NCBI GenBank assembly: GCA_026415035.1
Contig: JAOAHX010000019.1
Location: 1,683 to 47,957, forward strand
Direction: 5' to 3'
Source of the DNA: Thermodesulfobacteriota bacterium
GTDB lineage: Bacteria > Desulfobacterota > BSN033 > UBA1163
DNA: 46,275 nt
Shown here: positions 37,767 to 45,905 of the stretch, in pieces
Position numbering within the stretch: position 1 is the stretch's first letter
Layout: the number at the start of each line of letters is the position of its first letter
Translations under genes and position numbers: made by a program
The notes under the pieces: generated by a model
The model's input: only the letters and a program-made list of their open reading frames with translations
What the model was told of the DNA's origin: nothing
Database searches by the model: none

Positions 37767-38051
37767 TCACCTCCCCGCTCTACTTTCAACCCATTTTGGA
37801 GGGTGAAAGAAAAAATAGGGCAGTTTATCCAATAACTTAAATACATTGGGTAGTTCAGCATATCCCAACAAAATAAGGTTCGAAGGGAGGGGGGTTATTC
37901 TTTCGGAAACCATGGGACAATGAAAGGCAAATCCACATCCCTTCTCCCATTTTTCCGCGTTTTCGGTCTCCGAGCACCTACTCAGGATTTCCGTTGGGAA
38001 GTATGAGAGAAGAAGACCGATGAGGATGAGGAGGTTAAGAATCTTTTTCAT
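37767..38051 (-). CDS. Small secreted or membrane protein of the sulfur operon
   Basis: About 94 residues. A signal or anchor segment (ILNLLILIGLLLSYFPTEILS) is followed by a short region with cysteines in RCSETENAEKWEKGCGFAFHCP and an aromatic C-terminus (DKLPYFFFHPPKW). The ATG at 38049-38051 overlaps the upstream stop as ATGA and has GAGGGGG before it, so it is translationally coupled and very likely real. I do not recognise the family. Position as last gene of the thiocarboxylate operon suggests a sulfur- or metal-linked envelope role. Confidence 0.65.
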   Translation of the reverse strand: MKKILNLLILIGLLLSYFPTEILSRCSETENAEKWEKGCGFAFHCPMVSERITPLPSNLILLGYAELPNVFKLLDKLPYFFFHPPKWVESRAGR

Positions 38052-38905
38052 GCCGCCCCCTCCCCATTCAAGGAGGTGTTGAGATTCCACCCTTTGATCC
38101 CGGTCTTCACCTGACGAAGAACCTCTTCGTGTCTCGGGCAAAATTCATATGCTCCGTCCAACTGGGCATGGATCATCTCCTCTTGCCAATGACTATTAAA
38201 GAGGCGACAATCCGGATCGTCACAAAAAGGGTCCCCCTCAAGATTGTACATGAAGGCTTGAAGGACATATCCTTTAAGCACTTCTGTCATCCTCGGATCT
38301 CCGTGGTCTATAAATTTCCCTTTATATTCCTCTTTGAGCCATTCGATCGGGATTCCCTTTTGTTTCTTCACATAATACTCTCTCGGCCTTGCCGGCCCTG
38401 ACACGATCCCCGGGATAGAGATCAGATGGGGAAACCCGTAAAGACTTATCCGAATATGGAAATGCCAATCGTCGGGGTCCCATGTAGCGATCAGTTGGTT
38501 CGTAAAGAGGATCGTACACTCCTCCTCGCTCAACCGGCCTTCGAAGACGAGATCGTGAATTAGTTGTTGATAAAGGGCCCCCTCATAAGGGATCCCGTAG
38601 AGCTGCCAACCTGGGTCTCTCATCCGATCCATCTCGTATTGGACTTCGACCTCAAAGACCGTTTTGGGCAAAGGCCTTTTGGGATTTTTGATTCTTATCC
38701 CGGCAAACTTCCTTGCCAAGATCTCGATCCGGTCCGGTGAAAGGGATTGATAAACATTGCCTCCCCCCAAAACCGGGATGCCCGTCTTTTCTTGGAGATA
38801 CCCTTTTAAAGATTCTAAGTTTATCCCGCTGAGGTCGCCCTCGATATAAAATTGAATGTGGGAGGGCAGGGGATGAGCATCTCCTTCCTTGGGAATCCCT
38901 CTCAT
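38048..38905 (-). CDS. Conserved protein resembling the DUF6775 putative metallopeptidases
   Basis: About 285 residues, no signal peptide. The first part ([30 protein letters not shown]) looks like an alpha/beta domain. The C-terminal part has a cysteine/histidine set, [17 protein letters not shown], then [16 protein letters not shown], which recalls the metal site and zinc-binding tail of DUF6775/archaemetzincin-like proteins, though no HExxH is visible. The ATG at 38903-38905 overlaps the thi4 stop as ATGA. Assignment is from memory of motifs only. Its activity and its link to thiazole or sulfur metabolism are unknown. Confidence 0.6.
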
Positions 38906-39699
38906 TGGCCCAGCTTTTTCAGGATGACCTCCGCCCCTTTTCGGCCTGAAAGCAACATGGCGCCGAAGGTCGGCCCCATTCTTGGAAGGCCGAAGGTGGT
39001 CGCCACTGCCATTCCCGTCACCACCAATCCTGGATAGGCCTCTCCCGTATGTTGTACCACGAGATCTTCGGAGGCCTCGACCCACATCGCACCGTATCCG
39101 GAGGTCTTGATCAGGCCCCTCTCCTCCAGTTTTTTGACGACGCAGGCATCGTGGCCTGTCGAATCGACGACTACTTTCGCCTCGAGCGCGATAGGGTCAA
39201 CACAGGTTATTTCCCGGGGAAGCGCTTCAACCGGAGTCCAGTTGACCACCGCCCCCCGGACCCGGTTGCCTTCTTTGAGGACGACGTCATCGAATATGGT
39301 CATGTTGGCAAACTTCACCCCTGCATCACACGCCGAGGCGATCAGCTTGGAACAGGCATGGGGACCATCGGCGACATAGAGTCCCTCGGTCACTTTCTCG
39401 TAAGGGATTCCCAATTCCCCGAGGATCTTCTGACCCGGCTCCCGGACCGTCAGCTTGTTCATCAGATATCCCCCGATCCAGAACCCTCCGCCGATATAGT
39501 TGTTCCTCTCGACGATCAAGACCCTCAGGCCCTTCAAAGCCAGATCCCGTCCGGCCATCAATCCGCTGGGCCCCCCACCGATGATGAGACAATCGCTCTC
39601 CACATACTCGATGAACTGTTTGGCGAACCCCTCCACGATGGCTCGGGTCACTTCTTTTTCGCTCACGGGTGCAAAGATCTTTCCTTTCTCCTCGGACAT
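38902..39699 (-). CDS. thi4: Thi4-family thiazole synthase (cysteine-type active site)
   Basis: 265 residues with the FAD/NAD-binding [10 protein letters not shown] motif (41-50), the [14 protein letters not shown] loop and the C-terminal [16 protein letters not shown]. Thi4 makes the thiazole precursor of thiamine from NAD and glycine. Archaeal sulfide-using enzymes have His-Val-Asp-Pro at the sulfur position and yeast has a sacrificial Cys; here the motif is TCVDP with Cys166, so it is of the cysteine type. The ATG follows GAGGAGG. It lies 21 bases after the CysM-like gene. Confidence 0.9.
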
Positions 39700-39720: not shown

Positions 39721-40731
39721 TCATCGGGCTGAAGGAGCATACTGGGGGTACTCCTTCGAAAGCCTGATCTTCTGTTTCTCGCAATCGATGCAATATTCCG
39801 GATACCGTGCGCCCCCATCGGGAAAGATCGTTACGATCAGACCCTCTCCGATCGCTTCGGCCAGTTTGAGGGAGGCCCAGAAGGCCGCTCCCGAGGAAGG
39901 TCCGACCCAGAGCCCCTCCTCCCGGGTGAGGCGCCTGGCCATTTCGAAGGCATCTTCCGTCTTCACGAAGAAGGTGCCATCCAGAAGGCTTTCGTCATAG
40001 ATGCCCGGCTTGATCGCGGTTTCCATGTGCTTCAAGCCTTCGATCCCATGAAAACCACTGTCCGGCTGTACGCCATAGAGTTTGATGTTGGGGTTGAATT
40101 CCCTCAGTCTCCTTCCTGTCCCCATCAAGGTTCCGCCCGTCCCAACCCCAGCCACGAAGTGGGTCACCCTCCCGCCGGTCTGGTAGAAGATTTCGACCCC
40201 TGTGGTCTCGTAGTGAGCCTTCCAGTTCGAAGGATTGTTGTATTGATCGGCCTTAAAATAGCGATCCGGGTTGGCCTCGTAGATCTTTCTCGCTTCGATC
40301 AGGGCCCCATCCGACCCCAGGATGGGATCGGTATAGACCAACATCACCCCGTAAGACTCCAGCGCCTTCTTCCTCTCCTCGCTGATGTTTGCCGGGACGA
40401 CCAGTTGAACCCTGTAGCCTTTGACCGCCCCGATCATGGCATAGGCAATCCCCGTATTGCCCGAAGTGGAGTCGAGGATGATCTTGTCCCGGGTCAATAG
40501 ACCCGATCGCTCCCCATCCTCAATAATCTTATATCCGGCACGGTCCTTTACGGAGCCGCCCGGGTTGAGCCATTCGGCCTTGGCGTAGATCTCAACCTTT
40601 CGGAGGTGCCGCGCCAACTGACGGATCTGGATCAAGGGGGTGTTTCCGATCTGGGTGAGAAGGGAGTAACGGTCCTCTTTCCCCTCTCTTTGAACGGATT
40701 CCACCGCCTGTTTTAAAGGAAGGGCTTCCAT
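39721..40731 (-). CDS. CysM-like PLP-dependent cysteine synthase
   Basis: 336 residues, fold-type II PLP enzyme with the catalytic lysine Lys62 in NPGGSVKDR, substrate loop [10 protein letters not shown] and phosphate loop GVGTGGTLMGTG. A C-terminal extension contains CIDC (about 316-319). The sequence is nearer CysM/CBS-type enzymes than CysK. In actinobacteria, CysM takes sulfur from the thiocarboxylate of CysO, and Mec+ (JAMM) then frees cysteine. Here a MoaD-like carrier, a ThiF/MoeB enzyme and a JAMM protein lie next to it, so the same logic is likely. Good Shine-Dalgarno (GGAGG). Confidence 0.85.
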   Translation of the reverse strand: MEALPLKQAVESVQREGKEDRYSLLTQIGNTPLIQIRQLARHLRKVEIYAKAEWLNPGGSVKDRAGYKIIEDGERSGLLTRDKIILDSTSGNTGIAYAMIGAVKGYRVQLVVPANISEERKKALESYGVMLVYTDPILGSDGALIEARKIYEANPDRYFKADQYNNPSNWKAHYETTGVEIFYQTGGRVTHFVAGVGTGGTLMGTGRRLREFNPNIKLYGVQPDSGFHGIEGLKHMETAIKPGIYDESLLDGTFFVKTEDAFEMARRLTREEGLWVGPSSGAAFWASLKLAEAIGEGLIVTIFPDGGARYPEYCIDCEKQKIRLSKEYPQYAPSAR

Positions 40732-40757: not shown

Positions 40758-41153
40758 TTAAACGATCTCGATCTCCTCGGGATGAACCGTTTCTTCTTTA
40801 ATTTTATAAGCCCTCACGAGGGGTGGATCCTCTTTCAGGGAAACGATCACCGTGGTCACTTCCGGATAGAAGGCCAGTTCGATGTCCGTTTTCGACGGAT
40901 AGGGATCCGTATGGGTATGGGAATGGTAGATGGCCACCATCTCCAACCCATCCTTCTCCATTTCGTCGAAGACCTTCAACTGATCCAAAGGCGAAAGGGA
41001 GTACCGCGTTGGACTCTGTTCTTGGTTTCGCATTTCGAAGGCCCTCTCGACCCTTCCGTCCCGGCCGGCCAGAATCCCGCAACATTCGAGGGGGGCCTCC
41101 CTTTGGGCATGGGCGATCATCCTTTCGTAGATCGTCTTTGGAATCTTCAACAC
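40758..41153 (-). CDS. JAMM/MPN+ metallopeptidase (Mec-type)
   Basis: About 131 residues from a GTG at 41151-41153, 8 bases after the end of the read-through rhodanese gene; longer frames would overlap that gene. The JAMM zinc site is complete: Glu23 (APLECCG), His77, His79, Ser87 and Asp90 in the HxHx7Sx2D arrangement. Such bacterial proteins cleave at the C-terminus of sulfur-carrier proteins (Mec+, QbsD, HcyD). Here it could release cysteine from the carrier, trim the MoaD-NIL fusion, or both. GTG versus the adjoining TTG is uncertain. Confidence 0.85.
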   Translation of the reverse strand: MLKIPKTIYERMIAHAQREAPLECCGILAGRDGRVERAFEMRNQEQSPTRYSLSPLDQLKVFDEMEKDGLEMVAIYHSHTHTDPYPSKTDIELAFYPEVTTVIVSLKEDPPLVRAYKIKEETVHPEEIEIV

Positions 41154-41161
41154 GTTCCGCT

Positions 41162-42139
41162 CTACTTTTTCGGAGGACCCACTTCGATGGGTTCTTCGCT
41201 CCGGCTCCATTCGATCCATGAACCGTCGTAGTTTCTCAACCTCTCCAGGGGGAAACCGATCAGATAGAGACTCACCAAACTGTGAGTCGAACGGACCCCG
41301 GAGTGTCAGTAAATATGGACCTCTTTGTCCGGGGTGACCCCGATATCGGCAAAGAGTTTCCGAATCTCCTCGGCCGGCCTCCAGAAGCCCTTGTAAGGCC
41401 CTTCCTTGACGAGCACCTCTCTCCACTCGATCCATTTCACGCCTGGGATCCGTCCGGGTTTGGCCGCACCCGTCAGCGCCTCCTCTCCGAGGTATTCCTT
41501 GCTCGCCCTCACATCGAGGACCACCTTTTTCGGGTCTTTTAAAGCCCCCCTTACCTCTGGCAAACCGCAGAGAAGGGGCTCGGTCGTGCTGGTCTTTCCC
41601 GGGAGTTTGAATGGAGCCGGGCTCGTCGAAGGGGGGACCATCTCGGTCGGATAACCCTTGGCCTTCCATCCCTCCACGCCCCCATCCAATAATTTCATCC
41701 GGGAGATCGGGAAACCATAGTAGGCCAAGATCCACCAGAGACGGGCCGCATCCGGTCCATCCGAATAGATCACCAAGGTGTGATGGTTGCTGACCCCGAG
41801 CCTAGCCATCAGCTCCTCGATCTGGCGTTGCGGGGCCATCATTCCCGGAAGGGGGTGGTCTTTGTCGGTGATATCGGGCCTCCAAATGTTCACGGCCCCA
41901 GGAATATGGCCTGCGAGATACTTTATTTTTTCTCTTACATCGATGATTCGAAGCTCAGGGACCCTCCGATCGATGAGGGCCTTCAATTCCTCGGGCTGAA
42001 TGATCAGCTCGGGTCGTGCATAGCCACCGTTTGGGACGGCAAAGGCCGAGGATCCCAAGGGCCCCGTTCCAAAAAAGACAAGGGAAAAAAGGATGAAAGG
42101 TTTTCCGAAACGCTTTAATAAACACCTCCAATGAGCCAT
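41162..42139 (-). CDS. Secreted tandem rhodanese, predicted selenoprotein (Sec278)
   Basis: Read straight through an in-frame TGA at 41306-41308 the gene gives 325 residues. Up to the TGA it has a signal peptide (PFILFSLVFFGTGPLGSSAFA), a first rhodanese domain with a non-catalytic SDGPDAARLWW loop, and most of a second domain. The TGA falls in EVHIY-x-HSGVRSTHS, exactly where active rhodaneses carry the catalytic cysteine, and the frame continues with LRNYDGSWIEWS, the conserved C-terminal motif, to TAG. A perfect hairpin at 41269-41288 follows. Selenocysteine at the only catalytic site is the best explanation. Without read-through the enzyme would lack its active residue. Confidence 0.88.
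41269..41288 (-). promoter_or_regulatory. Bacterial SECIS-like hairpin of the rhodanese gene
   Basis: GACTCAC-AGTTTG-GTGAGTC: a perfect 7-bp stem and 6-base loop with G at loop position 2. It starts 17 bases after the TGA, placing the apical loop 24 bases downstream, inside the 16-37 range known for bacterial SECIS elements read by SelB. It lies in the coding sequence. Confidence 0.8.
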
Positions 42140-42164
42140 CTTCTTCCGTCCTTTCTCCCCCCAT

Positions 42165-43388
42165 TTAAACCGTGGCCTGTGGATGGCCATCCAACCCACA
42201 GGCCTCCTGATAACTGGCGAGCTCTTTGATCACCGGCTTCTCGTTGCAAAGCGGGCAAGAGGGATTCTTCCTGACCGGAAATTGTTTGAACTCTACATCG
42301 AGGGCATTGTAAATGAGGAATTGACCGATCAGGGGTTTCCCTATACCGAGGATCAATTTGATCGCCTCCGTGGCCTGAAAAAGTCCAACCTGCCCGGGCA
42401 CAACTCCCAGGACACCGGCCTCGTTTCAGCTGGGCACGAGCCCTGCCGGAGGAGGCTCGGGGAAAAGACAACGAAGGCAGGGGCCTCCCCGGTTGGGTGC
42501 GAAGACGCTCACCTGGCCCTCGAACTGGAAGACCCCTCCGAAAACGAAGGGTTTGCCGGAGAAGAAGGCGGCGTCGTTGACCAGGTATTTCGTGGGGAAG
42601 TTGTCCGAACCATCGACGATGATATCGTAGTCCTGAAAGATCCTCATCGCATTCTCGGCGGAGAGCCTTTCCTGATAGGTGATGACCTTGACATCGGGGT
42701 TGAGCCTGGCGATGGCCTCTTTCGCGGACTCGGTCTTGGGGCGGCCCACATCCGAGGTGCGATGAAGGATCTGCCGCTGAAGATTCGTCAGGTCGACCCG
42801 ATCGTCGTCGATGATCCCCAATGTTCCCACTCCGGCCGCAGCCAGATAGATGGCGATCGGACAACCCAGACCTCCTGCTCCGATCAGGAGGACCTTGGCG
42901 TTCAGAAGCTTCAACTGCCCCTCCGCTCCCACCTCTTGCAATAGGATGTGGCGGCTATATCGGGAAAGCTGTAAGGAGGTCAACCCCGTATCGCTGGCCA
43001 CGTCATATCCGGCCTTCTTCCACCCTTCGATCCCCTCCCTCATCGAGGCAACCCGCTTGTAGCCCATCTCTCTCAGCGTCTTGGCCGCCAGGAGGGAGCG
43101 GACACCTGCTGCACAATAAACCACCACCGGGGTTTCTTTGTCGGGCAAAAGGGCCTCCGCCTTTTCGGGGAGCTGGGCCCTCGGGATGAAGATCGAATCT
43201 TTGAGATACCCCAGGGCCAGCTCCTCCTTTTCCCGGACATCCAAGAGGGCCACCTTTTCCCCCCTCTTGAGCAGTTGGTGGACCTCCTGGATGGACAACT
43301 CGGACACGTCTTTGTACTTCTCCTTCAGGGCCTTCCGGAGGAGAGGCCCCGCCACTTTCCAGAAAAGATCTTTGATGGACTGGTTCAT
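42165..43388 (-). CDS. moeB: Rhodanese-ThiF/MoeB sulfur-carrier activating enzyme, predicted selenoprotein (Sec321)
   Basis: Read through an in-frame TGA at 42426-42428 the gene encodes 407 residues. An N-terminal rhodanese domain has its cysteine (Cys92 in VVVYCAAGVRS). The ThiF/MoeB domain starts about residue 138 with ATP motif GAGGLGCP (170-177), the Arg-finger region DLTNLQRQILH and zinc ligands CLRC (304-307) and CPLC (378-381). The TGA replaces the conserved cysteine of GLVPS-C-AEAGVLGV, which in ThiF takes part in sulfur transfer. The second zinc pair lies after the TGA, so read-through is needed for a complete fold. Domain order is reversed relative to MoeZ/MOCS3. Confidence 0.9.
42393..42411 (-). 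promoter_or_regulatory. Bacterial SECIS-like hairpin of the MoeB gene
   Basis: CCTGGG-AGTTGTG-CCCGGG: six pairs (one G-U) and a 7-base loop with G at position 2. It begins 14 bases after the TGA, so the loop is 20 bases downstream. The loop starts AGTT, as in the rhodanese element. Confidence 0.72.
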
Positions 43389-43418: not shown

Positions 43419-43934
43419 TCAGACCACGACATCCTTTTCGACGGGCTCAACCTTGACCCCAATTCCCTTTAAATATTCGAGGGCCTTTAAGTACTCTTCC
43501 TCCTCTCCGTCGATCTCCAGGGTGACCCAACCCACGTTCTCGGTGACGTTGGCACTCCGAATGTTCGTGACGATTTTGAAAAGATGGCCGATCTTGTAGA
43601 TAACAGGCTCCTGGATCTTTTCGGGAGGAAAGGTGAGCGTGACCTTCCTTTTCAGGGTGGTCCCTCCCGCGATGGCCGGGATGATGGAGATCTGATCCCC
43701 GTCTTTGACAGGGGTCTCAAGGTTTTGGATGAAGCGGATATCCTCTTCGTTCACATAGATATTGATGAACCGCCTCAGCTCCCCTTGCTCATCCTTCAGC
43801 CTCTCTTTGAGGCCGGGATAGGTCTCAATGAGCCAATCGATCACCTCACCGACGGTCTTCCCGTCGGCGGAAAGAACGTCCTGTTCCCCGGTCAACCTCT
43901 TGAGTGGGGTGGGTATTCTCACACGGATGCTCAT
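43419..43934 (-). CDS. MoaD/ThiS-like sulfur carrier fused to a NIL domain
   Basis: 171 residues. Residues 1-91 form a ubiquitin-like MoaD domain (GKTVGEVIDWLIETYPGL, INIYVNEEDIRF, VKDGDQISIIPAIAGG) ending in Gly90-Gly91. Instead of stopping there, the chain continues as TTLKRKVTLTF into a NIL domain (about 95-165, as in MetN and NIL-ferredoxins). Carrier proteins need a free C-terminal Gly-Gly to be adenylated, so processing after Gly91 is expected, perhaps by the neighbouring JAMM protein. ATG 43932-43934 stands behind GAGGAGGGAG, 13 bases from the thrC-like stop. Confidence 0.88.
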   Translation of the reverse strand: MSIRVRIPTPLKRLTGEQDVLSADGKTVGEVIDWLIETYPGLKERLKDEQGELRRFINIYVNEEDIRFIQNLETPVKDGDQISIIPAIAGGTTLKRKVTLTFPPEKIQEPVIYKIGHLFKIVTNIRSANVTENVGWVTLEIDGEEEEYLKALEYLKGIGVKVEPVEKDVVV

Positions 43935-43947
43935 CTCTCCCTCCTCT

Positions 43948-45216
43948 TTAAATCGAAACCTGAATCGGGTTCTCTCGCCCCTTTTTCTGCTGGGGTTCCA
44001 CGATCTTCTCAAATTCGGAAAACTTGGCCGATATGACGACAGGGCGACCTACCCTGTCCTGGATCGCCTCCTGGGTCTTTAACCCATTTCCGGTGATGGA
44101 AATGAGGATCGACTCGTCTTTTGGGATGACCCCCTTTTCGATCAACTTCTTCGTGACCCCCACCGTCACGCCTCCTGCGGTTTCGGTAAAGATCCCCTCG
44201 GTGCGTGCCAACAGTTTCATGGCCTCCACGATCTCTTCATCGGTGACGTCTTCGGCCATCCCGCCCGATTCCCGGATGGTCTTCAGGGCGTAGTAGCCAT
44301 CTGCGGGGTTCCCGATGGCGAGGGATTTGGCGATGGTTCTTGGCCTCTGAGGCCTGATCCAATCGATTCCCTCCTTGAAGGCGGCGACGATCGGATTCGA
44401 CCCGGCTGCCTGAGCCCCATAGATTTTGCACTGAACGGAATCGATCAGGCCGAGCGTGGCCAATTCATTGAAACCTTTCCAGATCTTCGTGATAAGGGAT
44501 CCGCCCGCCATCGGCACGACGATATGCTTCGGGGTCTTCCAGCCCAACTGTTCCGCAATTTCGTATCCGTAGGTCTTCGACCCCTCGGCATAGAAAGGCC
44601 GCAAATTGATATTGACGAATGCCCATCTGTAATTTTCGCCGATCTCGCTACAAAGCCGGTTCACCTCGTCATAACTCCCTGTGATTCCGATGAGGTTTGT
44701 CCCGTAGACCAAAGTGCCGAGAATCTTTCCCTGTTCAAGGTCATGGGGGACGAAGATGTAACTGGTCAGCCCCCCCTCCGCGGCAAGGGCGGCTACGGAG
44801 TTGGCAAGATTCCCGGTCGAGGCGCACGAAACCACCTCAAAACCGAATTCCTTGGCCTTGGAGATGGCCACCGCAACGACCCGGTCTTTGAAGGAAAGGG
44901 TGGGATGATTGACCGCATCGTTCTTCAAATATAGCTCCTTTACCCCGAGGACCTCTGCCAGCCTCTCCGCCCTTTTTAAAGGGGTGAAGCCAACCTCGAG
45001 TCCAACGGAGGGTTCCGAATTTAAAGGAAGGAGCTCTCTGTAACGCCACATCGTCTTGGGTCTGGATTCGATCATCTTTCTGTCGAGGTTTCTTTTTATA
45101 CTTTCATAGTCGTATTCGACCTCCAGGGGACCGAAGCAGAATTCGCATACGTGAACCGGGGCCAACGGAACCTCCCTTTTACACTCCCTACATCTCAATC
45201 CTTTGACGTATCCCAT
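43948..45216 (-). CDS. thrC: Threonine synthase-like PLP enzyme with N-terminal zinc ribbon
   Basis: About 422 residues. An N-terminal zinc ribbon (Cys9, 12, 24, 27) precedes a fold-type II PLP domain with Lys110 in LSFKDR, the substrate loop ASTGNLANSVA and ITGNGLKT near the end. This matches ThrC, which converts O-phosphohomoserine to threonine. Related enzymes make cysteate or act in sulfur amino-acid formation. As first gene of a sulfur-carrier operon it might use the carrier as sulfur donor to make homocysteine, which is inference. ATG at 45214-45216 has AGGTGG at ideal spacing; the longer frame runs through the AT-rich leader. Confidence 0.85.
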   Translation of the reverse strand: MGYVKGLRCRECKREVPLAPVHVCEFCFGPLEVEYDYESIKRNLDRKMIESRPKTMWRYRELLPLNSEPSVGLEVGFTPLKRAERLAEVLGVKELYLKNDAVNHPTLSFKDRVVAVAISKAKEFGFEVVSCASTGNLANSVAALAAEGGLTSYIFVPHDLEQGKILGTLVYGTNLIGITGSYDEVNRLCSEIGENYRWAFVNINLRPFYAEGSKTYGYEIAEQLGWKTPKHIVVPMAGGSLITKIWKGFNELATLGLIDSVQCKIYGAQAAGSNPIVAAFKEGIDWIRPQRPRTIAKSLAIGNPADGYYALKTIRESGGMAEDVTDEEIVEAMKLLARTEGIFTETAGGVTVGVTKKLIEKGVIPKDESILISITGNGLKTQEAIQDRVGRPVVISAKFSEFEKIVEPQQKKGRENPIQVSI

Positions 45217-45290
45217 ATTGTCCACCTTATTAATAAAAATTTTTCTATGAGTTTGTTTATTATTTTTATCGGGTTTTTTTATAAAAATTT

Positions 45291-45440: not shown

Positions 45441-45905
45441 TTAAATGTAATACATGACATTTCGGGATTGCTCCTTCTTCAATCCCATCTCCTTGGCTTT
45501 TGTACAGAGGTCCTGAATGGTAATTGAATCGAAATACTCCTTCAATCGATCGCCCGCCCCTTTCCATATGATCTCAGTGATGCACTCCCCAGATCTCTTG
45601 CAGGGCCTGCTCGAATCCTCAGGATCGACACAGGCGACCGGGTTTATCTCCCCTTCGGTGATTCGGATGATATCCCCGATCGTGATCTCCTCAGGCTTTT
45701 TCTTTAAAAAATAGCCTCCGGATGGCCCTCTTTTGCTGCTAATGATCCCCCCTTTTTTCAGCTTCTGGAAGATCTGCTCAATATATCTCGGAGAGATCCC
45801 CTCCCTCCTCGAAATGTCCTTGACCTGCGTCTCTAACCCGTCAGAATGATAGGCAATATCGAATATCGCCCTCACTCCATAACGGCTCTTAGTCGATAGC
45901 CTCAT
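45441..45905 (-). CDS. Rrf2-family transcriptional regulator (IscR/CymR-like)
   Basis: 154 residues. An N-terminal winged helix (MRLSTKSRYGVRAIFDIAYH, with ISRREGISPRYIEQIFQKLKKGGII) carries the Rrf2 wing SKRGPSGGYFL. Three cysteines (Cys92, 102, 108) sit where IscR binds a [2Fe-2S] cluster, with spacing C-x9-C-x5-C. It could sense iron-sulfur or sulfur state; the CymR branch controls cysteine genes. The start follows AGGTG. It lies directly upstream of the sulfur operon and shares an operator-like sequence with it. Confidence 0.9.
   Translation of the reverse strand: MRLSTKSRYGVRAIFDIAYHSDGLETQVKDISRREGISPRYIEQIFQKLKKGGIISSKRGPSGGYFLKKKPEEITIGDIIRITEGEINPVACVDPEDSSRPCKRSGECITEIIWKGAGDRLKEYFDSITIQDLCTKAKEMGLKKEQSRNVMYYI

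Follow-up and report, generated by a model that had tools for sequence, protein, structure and literature searches.

The window, that is, the whole stretch of 46,275 nucleotides of Thermodesulfobacteriota DNA analysed here, carries on its minus strand a gene cluster that opens with a regulator of the Rrf2 family and continues, in this order, with a threonine-synthase-like gene, a gene joining a MoaD-type sulfur carrier to a NIL domain, a rhodanese-ThiF gene, a second rhodanese gene, a JAMM peptidase gene, a cysteine synthase gene, a Thi4-type thiazole synthase gene and a DUF6775 gene (Table 1). Relatives within the family share most of this order up to the limits of their contigs, but only two of them (L033 and L041) have Thi4 and DUF6775 in the cluster.

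Table 1. Positions of the fusion gene, its neighbours and their key sites in the window
Feature	Position	Strand	Basis or remark
Rrf2-family regulator (IscR/CymR-like), heading the cluster	45441..45905	(-)	profile matches; conserved position
Threonine-synthase-like PLP enzyme, ThrC paralog	43948..45219	(-)	TIGR00260, 304 bits
MoaD-NIL fusion gene	43419..43934	(-)	171 aa, ATG start, TGA stop; ORF, Pfam and homologous fusions
CysO-like ThiS/MoaD domain, residues 1-91	43662..43934	(-)	Pfam PF02597; best match 3dwg_C (CysO)
Gly90-Gly91 codons, putative cut after Gly91	43662..43667	(-)	conservation; low-pLDDT residues 88-92
NIL domain, MetN C2-like, residues 98-163	43446..43643	(-)	PF09383; MetN C2 chains by profile and fold
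Asn124 codon, column of MetN Asn295 (L-Met site)	43563..43565	(-)	profile alignment including N295A chain 6cvl
Rhodanese-ThiF E1-like activating enzyme, read through one in-frame TGA (Sec)	42165..43388	(-)
In-frame TGA at the crossover-loop catalytic Cys of E1 (probable selenocysteine)	42426..42428	(-)
Hairpin CCUGGG-7 nt-CCCGGG downstream of the TGA, SECIS candidate	42393..42411	(-)
Double rhodanese-type sulfurtransferase, TGA at catalytic Cys (41306-41308)	41162..42199, start codon uncertain	(-)
JAMM (Prok-JAB) peptidase, candidate processing enzyme, probable GTG start	40758..41153	(-)	PF14464, 89 bits
JAMM zinc motif HSHTHTDPYPSKTD	40884..40925	(-)	HxH...SxxD
Cysteine synthase (CysM/CysK-like PLP enzyme)	39721..40731	(-)	TIGR01138/01136, below their cut-offs
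DUF6775/DUF7001 protein, annotated as probable metallopeptidase, cluster end	38048..39085	(-)

Architecture of the fusion and conservation of its Gly-Gly pair

The original prediction placed Gly90-Gly91 inside the chain with 80 residues behind it, and both the reading frame and the Pfam matches bear this out. ThiS (PF02597) was matched at residues 5-91 with 70.6 bits (cut-off 22.5) and NIL (PF09383) at residues 98-163, the NIL domain proper, with 53.2 bits (cut-off 24); the first domain closes with PAIAGG, and exactly 80 residues come after Gly91. Profile comparison of the carrier half with CysO (3dwg_C) gave an E value of 8e-28 over residues 1-91, in an alignment that stops at the C-terminal GG of CysO itself, equivalent to Gly91. 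By fold, the same pair reached a Z score of 16.4 with 50% identity over 88 residues, making CysO the best match of this half by both sequence and structure. The second half resembles the C2 domain of MetN, with 3tuz superimposing at a Z score of 12.7 and 2.2 Å over 74 residues. The first half of the fusion is a CysO-type carrier domain and the second a MetN C2/NIL-type domain. A structure model built from 18 fusion proteins features two confident domains, and residues 88-92 form its only internal segment with a pLDDT below 50; the 80-residue extension beyond the Gly-Gly would thus start at an exposed junction. With a pTM of 0.52, the model does not predict how the two domains pack against each other. 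An assembly, frame or stop-codon artefact was ruled out as the source of the fusion because many genomes share the architecture: genes of 170-177 aa with this layout were recovered from nine more genomes within the family, from no fewer than four additional families and from a second phylum. No relative covering most of the fusion was found in the plasmid collection searched.

The Gly-Gly pair is invariant in 14 diverse carriers and in the 18 aligned fusions, and is kept in essentially all of about 135 sampled homologs, fused or unfused, one of which ends at a contig edge. The longer PAIAGG motif occurs in 132 of 135 homologs and in every aligned fusion, while residues 92-94, just past the Gly-Gly, vary among the 18 fusions. 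This pattern indicates that the Gly-Gly of the fusion is under selection. Thiocarboxylate chemistry, as established for CysO, runs at a C-terminal glycine (PMC3227635); since the pair is kept while the next residues vary, and since this chemistry needs a C-terminal glycine, the chain is implied to be cut. It is quite improbable that the fusion stays whole, with the MoaD half acting as a non-transfer module (a scaffold or ubiquitin-like binding module) and NIL as the working part: PAIAGG would then hardly be expected to be fully conserved in the fusions, nor would the operon be expected to retain an E1, rhodaneses and PLP enzymes, all pointing to a free thiocarboxylate. On the side of an uncut chain stand the retention of the fusion in several families and the solved structure 1v8c of Thermus thermophilus—like the fusion a two-domain MoaD-like protein with an internal AGG and a C-terminal domain, although its sequence similarity to the fusion fades beyond the carrier domain.

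Operon neighbours and two selenoprotein candidates

The threonine-synthase-like gene adjoins the carrier directly upstream in nearly all relatives and in several phyla, e.g., Verrucomicrobiota, Nitrospirota, a cyanobacterium and the phylum of the window itself. Another ThrC is encoded elsewhere in the window's genome, together with weaker copies, and nearly all sampled carrier genomes have a second ThrC-like gene (the exception, G037, has the linked copy alone). Because of these additional copies, the linked enzyme is probably specialised, and we regard it as a candidate user of the thiocarboxylate. Rhodanese-E1, cysteine synthase and JAMM genes are linked to the carrier in the same cluster. 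Outside the window, about 10 kb upstream of the operon (L052, 11018-12686), lie DUF39 and NIL-ferredoxin homocysteine genes, along with one more cysteine synthase and another Rrf2 regulator; in Desulfovibrio and Methanosarcina, DUF39 and NIL-ferredoxin have been described as a homocysteine system (PMC5764234).

The codon at the crossover-loop site of the E1-like gene is TGA in all 10 family genomes carrying the gene, never TAA or TAG, and TGT or TGC in other E1 homologs; it aligns with the Cys of Uba4, MoeB and ThiF. In Uba4, the residue at this site, Cys202, forms a thioester with Urm1 (PMC7527816). A gene broken by an in-frame stop was ruled out, given a TGA at the catalytic Cys in all 10 genomes. 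The hairpin downstream of the TGA has an invariant stem and unusually conserved synonymous sites (p = 1e-4), with a folding energy that is not unusual in the window copy, and both SelB and tRNA-Sec were found in the genome. From these sequence features, the E1-like enzyme, which would act directly on the fused carrier, is probably a selenoprotein. The double rhodanese is probably a second one, judging from its catalytic site, which is TGA in the window and in five relatives (L033, L034, L035, L037 and L038) and a Cys codon (TGT) in L039. The N-terminus of the rhodanese also includes a hydrophobic stretch, and the gene would be cut short by standard ORF calling. Selenoprotein families of MoeB and rhodanese are known from marine metagenomes (PMC1088965); here, two such candidates share one carrier operon.

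Tails, gene overlaps and the distribution of JAMM peptidases

The homolog sample, comprising 138 carrier genes in 137 loci, falls into three kinds of arrangement. In Verrucomicrobiota, the carrier stops exactly at the Gly-Gly, and any NIL present is encoded on its own, slightly downstream. The second kind, seen in many members of the window's phylum, in Nitrospirota and in others, has a carrier that ends a few residues past the Gly-Gly, with a stop codon overlapping or adjoining the NIL start codon; the tails of these short-tailed carriers are 1-16 residues long, often where genes overlap. In loci of the third kind, NIL is in frame with the carrier, i.e., fused. Carrier and NIL are two genes in most relatives, often with overlapping stop and start codons, which argues for NIL as a subunit in its own right; its reading as a disposable pro-peptide is disfavoured by the same observation.

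The step between overlap and fusion is short. The NIL match lies at an offset of 284 nucleotides in 14 overlapping pairs, where the carrier has a two-residue tail, and at 285 in 15 fusions—a difference of one nucleotide between the two forms. Moreover, the Gly-Gly codons read GGAGG in 17 of 23 abutting pairs vs. 6 of 19 fusions (p = 0.012), 16 of 55 genes stopping at the Gly-Gly (p = 4e-4) and 8 of 34 other genes (p = 3e-4), with relatedness not corrected in any of these comparisons; in the abutting pairs, GGAGG may plausibly double as the ribosome-binding site of NIL. Such an overlap of carrier stop and NIL start is seen in L045, L171, L176-L178 and similar loci, where mostly GGAGG encodes the Gly-Gly. 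Short tails look like a by-product of gene overlap, with fusion one step beyond. The fusion probably originated when two overlapping genes, the carrier stop lying inside the NIL start, were brought into one frame, a change that would be tolerated only in a background in which the Gly-Gly end is already released by a protease. On the best tree of the carriers, NIL fusions were gained or lost in 6-7 changes, but the 91-residue alignment resolves few forks and is therefore also compatible with a single origin.

Other variants were observed among the relatives. The same carrier is fused to ThiF/E1 instead of NIL, with the Gly-Gly internal, in L043 (from 2586), L044 (from 983) and L047 (from 7552). 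In L062 and L172, the fusion has 137 aa and its NIL half is about 34 internal residues short of that in the sister locus L173, a difference that either a deletion or faulty assembly may explain. In the window's genome, a second, distant carrier (L051, 6714-6983) ends exactly at the Gly-Gly and sits beside a ThiF without the crossover-loop Cys motif.

It is extremely improbable that the free carrier needs no protease and results from frameshifting or premature termination where the two domains join. A +1-frame stop does lie two codons past the Gly-Gly in the window, L034 and L041, where it is perhaps a relic of the overlapping-gene form, yet most other fusions have no stop there, share no slippery sequence and differ in position. 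Across fusions and homologs, no stop or start in another frame that would yield a free carrier by translation proved to be conserved, and, for want of a conserved signal, we rejected both programmed frameshifting and an internal start at this point.

The JAMM gene is the third gene downstream of the fusion. It is present in the operon of the window and of eight of the nine family relatives, the ninth (L040) ending at a contig edge, and its HxH...SxxD motif is intact in 51 of 51 JAMM matches, including the window copy; the protein also matches the desampylase model, below that model's cut-off. Whole-genome searches for Prok-JAB, evaluated at a loose and a strict match level, returned a match in 67 of 76 genomes when anything (a short tail, NIL or ThiF) follows the Gly-Gly vs. 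14 of 55 genomes with carriers stopping there, most of which come from one clade, Verrucomicrobiota (Fisher 1e-13). At the strict level, the counts were 67 of 76 vs. 8 of 55 (Fisher 7e-18), and the background rate in an even sample of the window's phylum was 64 of 297. Outside Verrucomicrobiota, 67 of 76 genomes with an extension compare with 10 of 14 without (p = 0.11 at the loose and p = 0.01 at the strict level), and phylogenetic control of tail against JAMM left only two independent pairs on supported branches in a tree of 91 columns, too few to be decisive. Since much of the contrast stems from one clade, co-occurrence supports but does not prove processing by JAMM. Additionally, Verrucomicrobial loci have no nearby E1 or cysteine synthase, so the missing JAMM may reflect a different pathway in that group. 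Within the window's family, JAMM accompanies 9 of 10 genomes with the fusion vs. 1-2 of 7 without a fused carrier (p = 0.004-0.03), a contrast limited by the shared operon, through which both genes may be gained or lost together. Nine tailed genomes gave no JAMM match; several of these loci end near the operon (e.g., L040 and L044), and L192, with a tailed carrier in a 99% complete genome, is a true exception.

Drawing from the CysO pathway, in which Mec+ hydrolyses the CysO-cysteine adduct (PMC3227635), the JAMM of the operon could instead, or also, release an amino acid from a carrier adduct. If that were its sole task, some other protease would have to cut the fusion—an unlikely arrangement, to which the Prok-JAB matches of the 10 GG-stop genomes outside Verrucomicrobiota nonetheless lend weight, as does the case of MoaX of Mycobacterium tuberculosis, the protease of which is not identified (PMC4326299). 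The distribution of JAMM argues against it: 41 of 55 genomes with carriers stopping at the Gly-Gly do without the peptidase, and tailed ones rarely do.

Probable processing of the carrier and its biological meaning

On the evidence gathered above, the fusion is probably an inactive precursor of a CysO-type carrier, which the JAMM peptidase would cut after Gly91 into a CysO-like carrier and a separate NIL subunit. In a first step, the operon's JAMM would cleave behind Gly91 in the flexible linker, and a 91-residue carrier ending in an exposed Gly-Gly would part from an 80-residue NIL protein. Then, going by the biochemistry of the family, the rhodanese-E1 would adenylate the carrier and convert its end into a C-terminal thiocarboxylate, with selenocysteine taking the place of the crossover-loop cysteine of E1. 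Finally, a PLP enzyme of the cluster (the CysM-like and/or the threonine-synthase-like one) would use the carrier sulfur to make cysteine or homocysteine. Cleavage by JAMM is favoured because of the CysO identity of the first half, the conservation of PAIAGG, the low-confidence linker, the intact JAMM motif and the operon linkage, and likewise because of the co-occurrence with JAMM, the separate NIL of relatives, the one-nucleotide step, the GGAGG pattern and the precedents discussed below. The original prediction had offered a choice between cleavage, with JAMM as the candidate protease, and a different role such as ligand control. The two checks it proposed that were run here, on the conservation of the Gly-Gly in homologs and on separate MoaD and NIL genes in relatives, both favour cleavage, together with the co-occurrence of JAMM and the precedents; the co-occurrence is shaped by phylogeny, and ligand control retains a small share of the probability.

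L-methionine binding in MetN requires the asparagine N295 (PMC12357092). With the N295 column of the NIL alignment fixed through the N295A crystal structure 6cvl, an Asn was found at this position in 91 of 100 NIL domains near carriers. Furthermore, the NIL subunit of L-ASST has been described as methionine-binding and regulatory (PMC12068725). A methionine-binding role of the NIL half is therefore likely. The fusion might even be a ligand-gated precursor, in which NIL, by binding methionine or a related amino acid, controls cutting by JAMM and places carrier maturation under feedback regulation. The MetN C2-like fold with its conserved L-Met Asn, the regulatory NIL subunit of L-ASST and the low-confidence linker adjoining NIL in the model all fit such a scheme; we nevertheless hold it to be unlikely, because most relatives have a separate NIL together with a short-tailed or untailed carrier, where gating borne by a fusion is impossible. 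Under the preferred reading, simple cleavage by JAMM, NIL is expected to work after the cut because it is usually a separate protein, and the freed product would most likely have methionine or a similar amino acid as its ligand and serve as a subunit that regulates or binds substrate, just as expected of NIL proteins encoded by a gene of their own.

The closest known system is the CysO/CysM/Mec+/MoeZ pathway of M. tuberculosis, with a carrier 50% identical to that of the window over the aligned region and a rhodanese-E1, a cysteine synthase and a JAMM peptidase that are gathered here in one cluster. However, CysO ends at its Gly-Gly whereas the window's carrier runs on into NIL, and the window adds a threonine-synthase-like enzyme, an Rrf2 regulator and Thi4, with an E1 and a rhodanese that are probable selenoproteins. 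We tentatively raise the idea, doubtful as it is, of an undescribed pathway in which a threonine-synthase-type enzyme takes the sulfur of the cleaved carrier to form homocysteine or another sulfur amino acid, with methionine feedback through NIL, maturation by JAMM and, in the window's lineage, activation through selenocysteine.

As for release of a buried Gly-Gly, the fusion MoaX (MoaD-MoaE) of M. tuberculosis also has the pair inside a fused chain and needs cleavage after its second glycine, Gly82, to function (PMC4326299). Its partner is MoaE of molybdopterin synthase, not NIL, and while the protease is the missing element there, a candidate JAMM lies in the operon here. MoaD-MoaE of Deinococcus radiodurans is cut by DRJAMM and the archaeal CsUb precursor is processed by CsRpn11 (PMC8832034, PMC6043591); in both, a JAMM enzyme acts on a carrier or ubiquitin-like precursor, although partners and pathways differ from those of the window. 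The NIL-ferredoxin subunit of L-aspartate semialdehyde sulfurtransferase (MA1822 type) likewise places NIL in sulfur amino-acid synthesis, but joined to ferredoxin instead of a sulfur carrier. In HcyS/HcyD of Wolinella and in QbsE/QbsD and PdtH of Pseudomonas, one or two residues past the Gly-Gly are removed by a JAMM-type peptidase. These carriers resemble the short-tailed relatives of the window, with a tail of 1-2 residues against one of 80 residues with a folded domain in the fusion.

Cleavage of ThiS/MoaD fusions by JAB enzymes to free the C-terminus was proposed in 2006, in a survey that lists fusions to ThiG, MoaE, sulfite reductase, ThiF and Mut7-C (PMC1779556) and in the text of which neither NIL nor threonine synthase occurs. 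In the openly accessible literature searched, no description was found of a MoaD-NIL fusion, of a threonine synthase with such a carrier, or of the association of NIL, a CysO-like carrier and a threonine-synthase paralog. The NIL fusion looks new, and the release of fused carriers by proteases is already known.

Sulfur carriers and ubiquitin-like proteins have one chemical need in common, a free C-terminal glycine, and how fused forms come by it is rarely evident. The present family offers a natural series, from carriers stopping at the Gly-Gly through tails of 1-16 residues to fusions with NIL or ThiF, with JAMM found mostly where something follows the pair. Across several phyla, it further ties NIL subunits of the methionine-binding type to a CysO-like carrier and a paralog of threonine synthase. 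The testable rule that the family offers—no JAMM, no tail—comes together with a short route from overlapping genes to a fusion.
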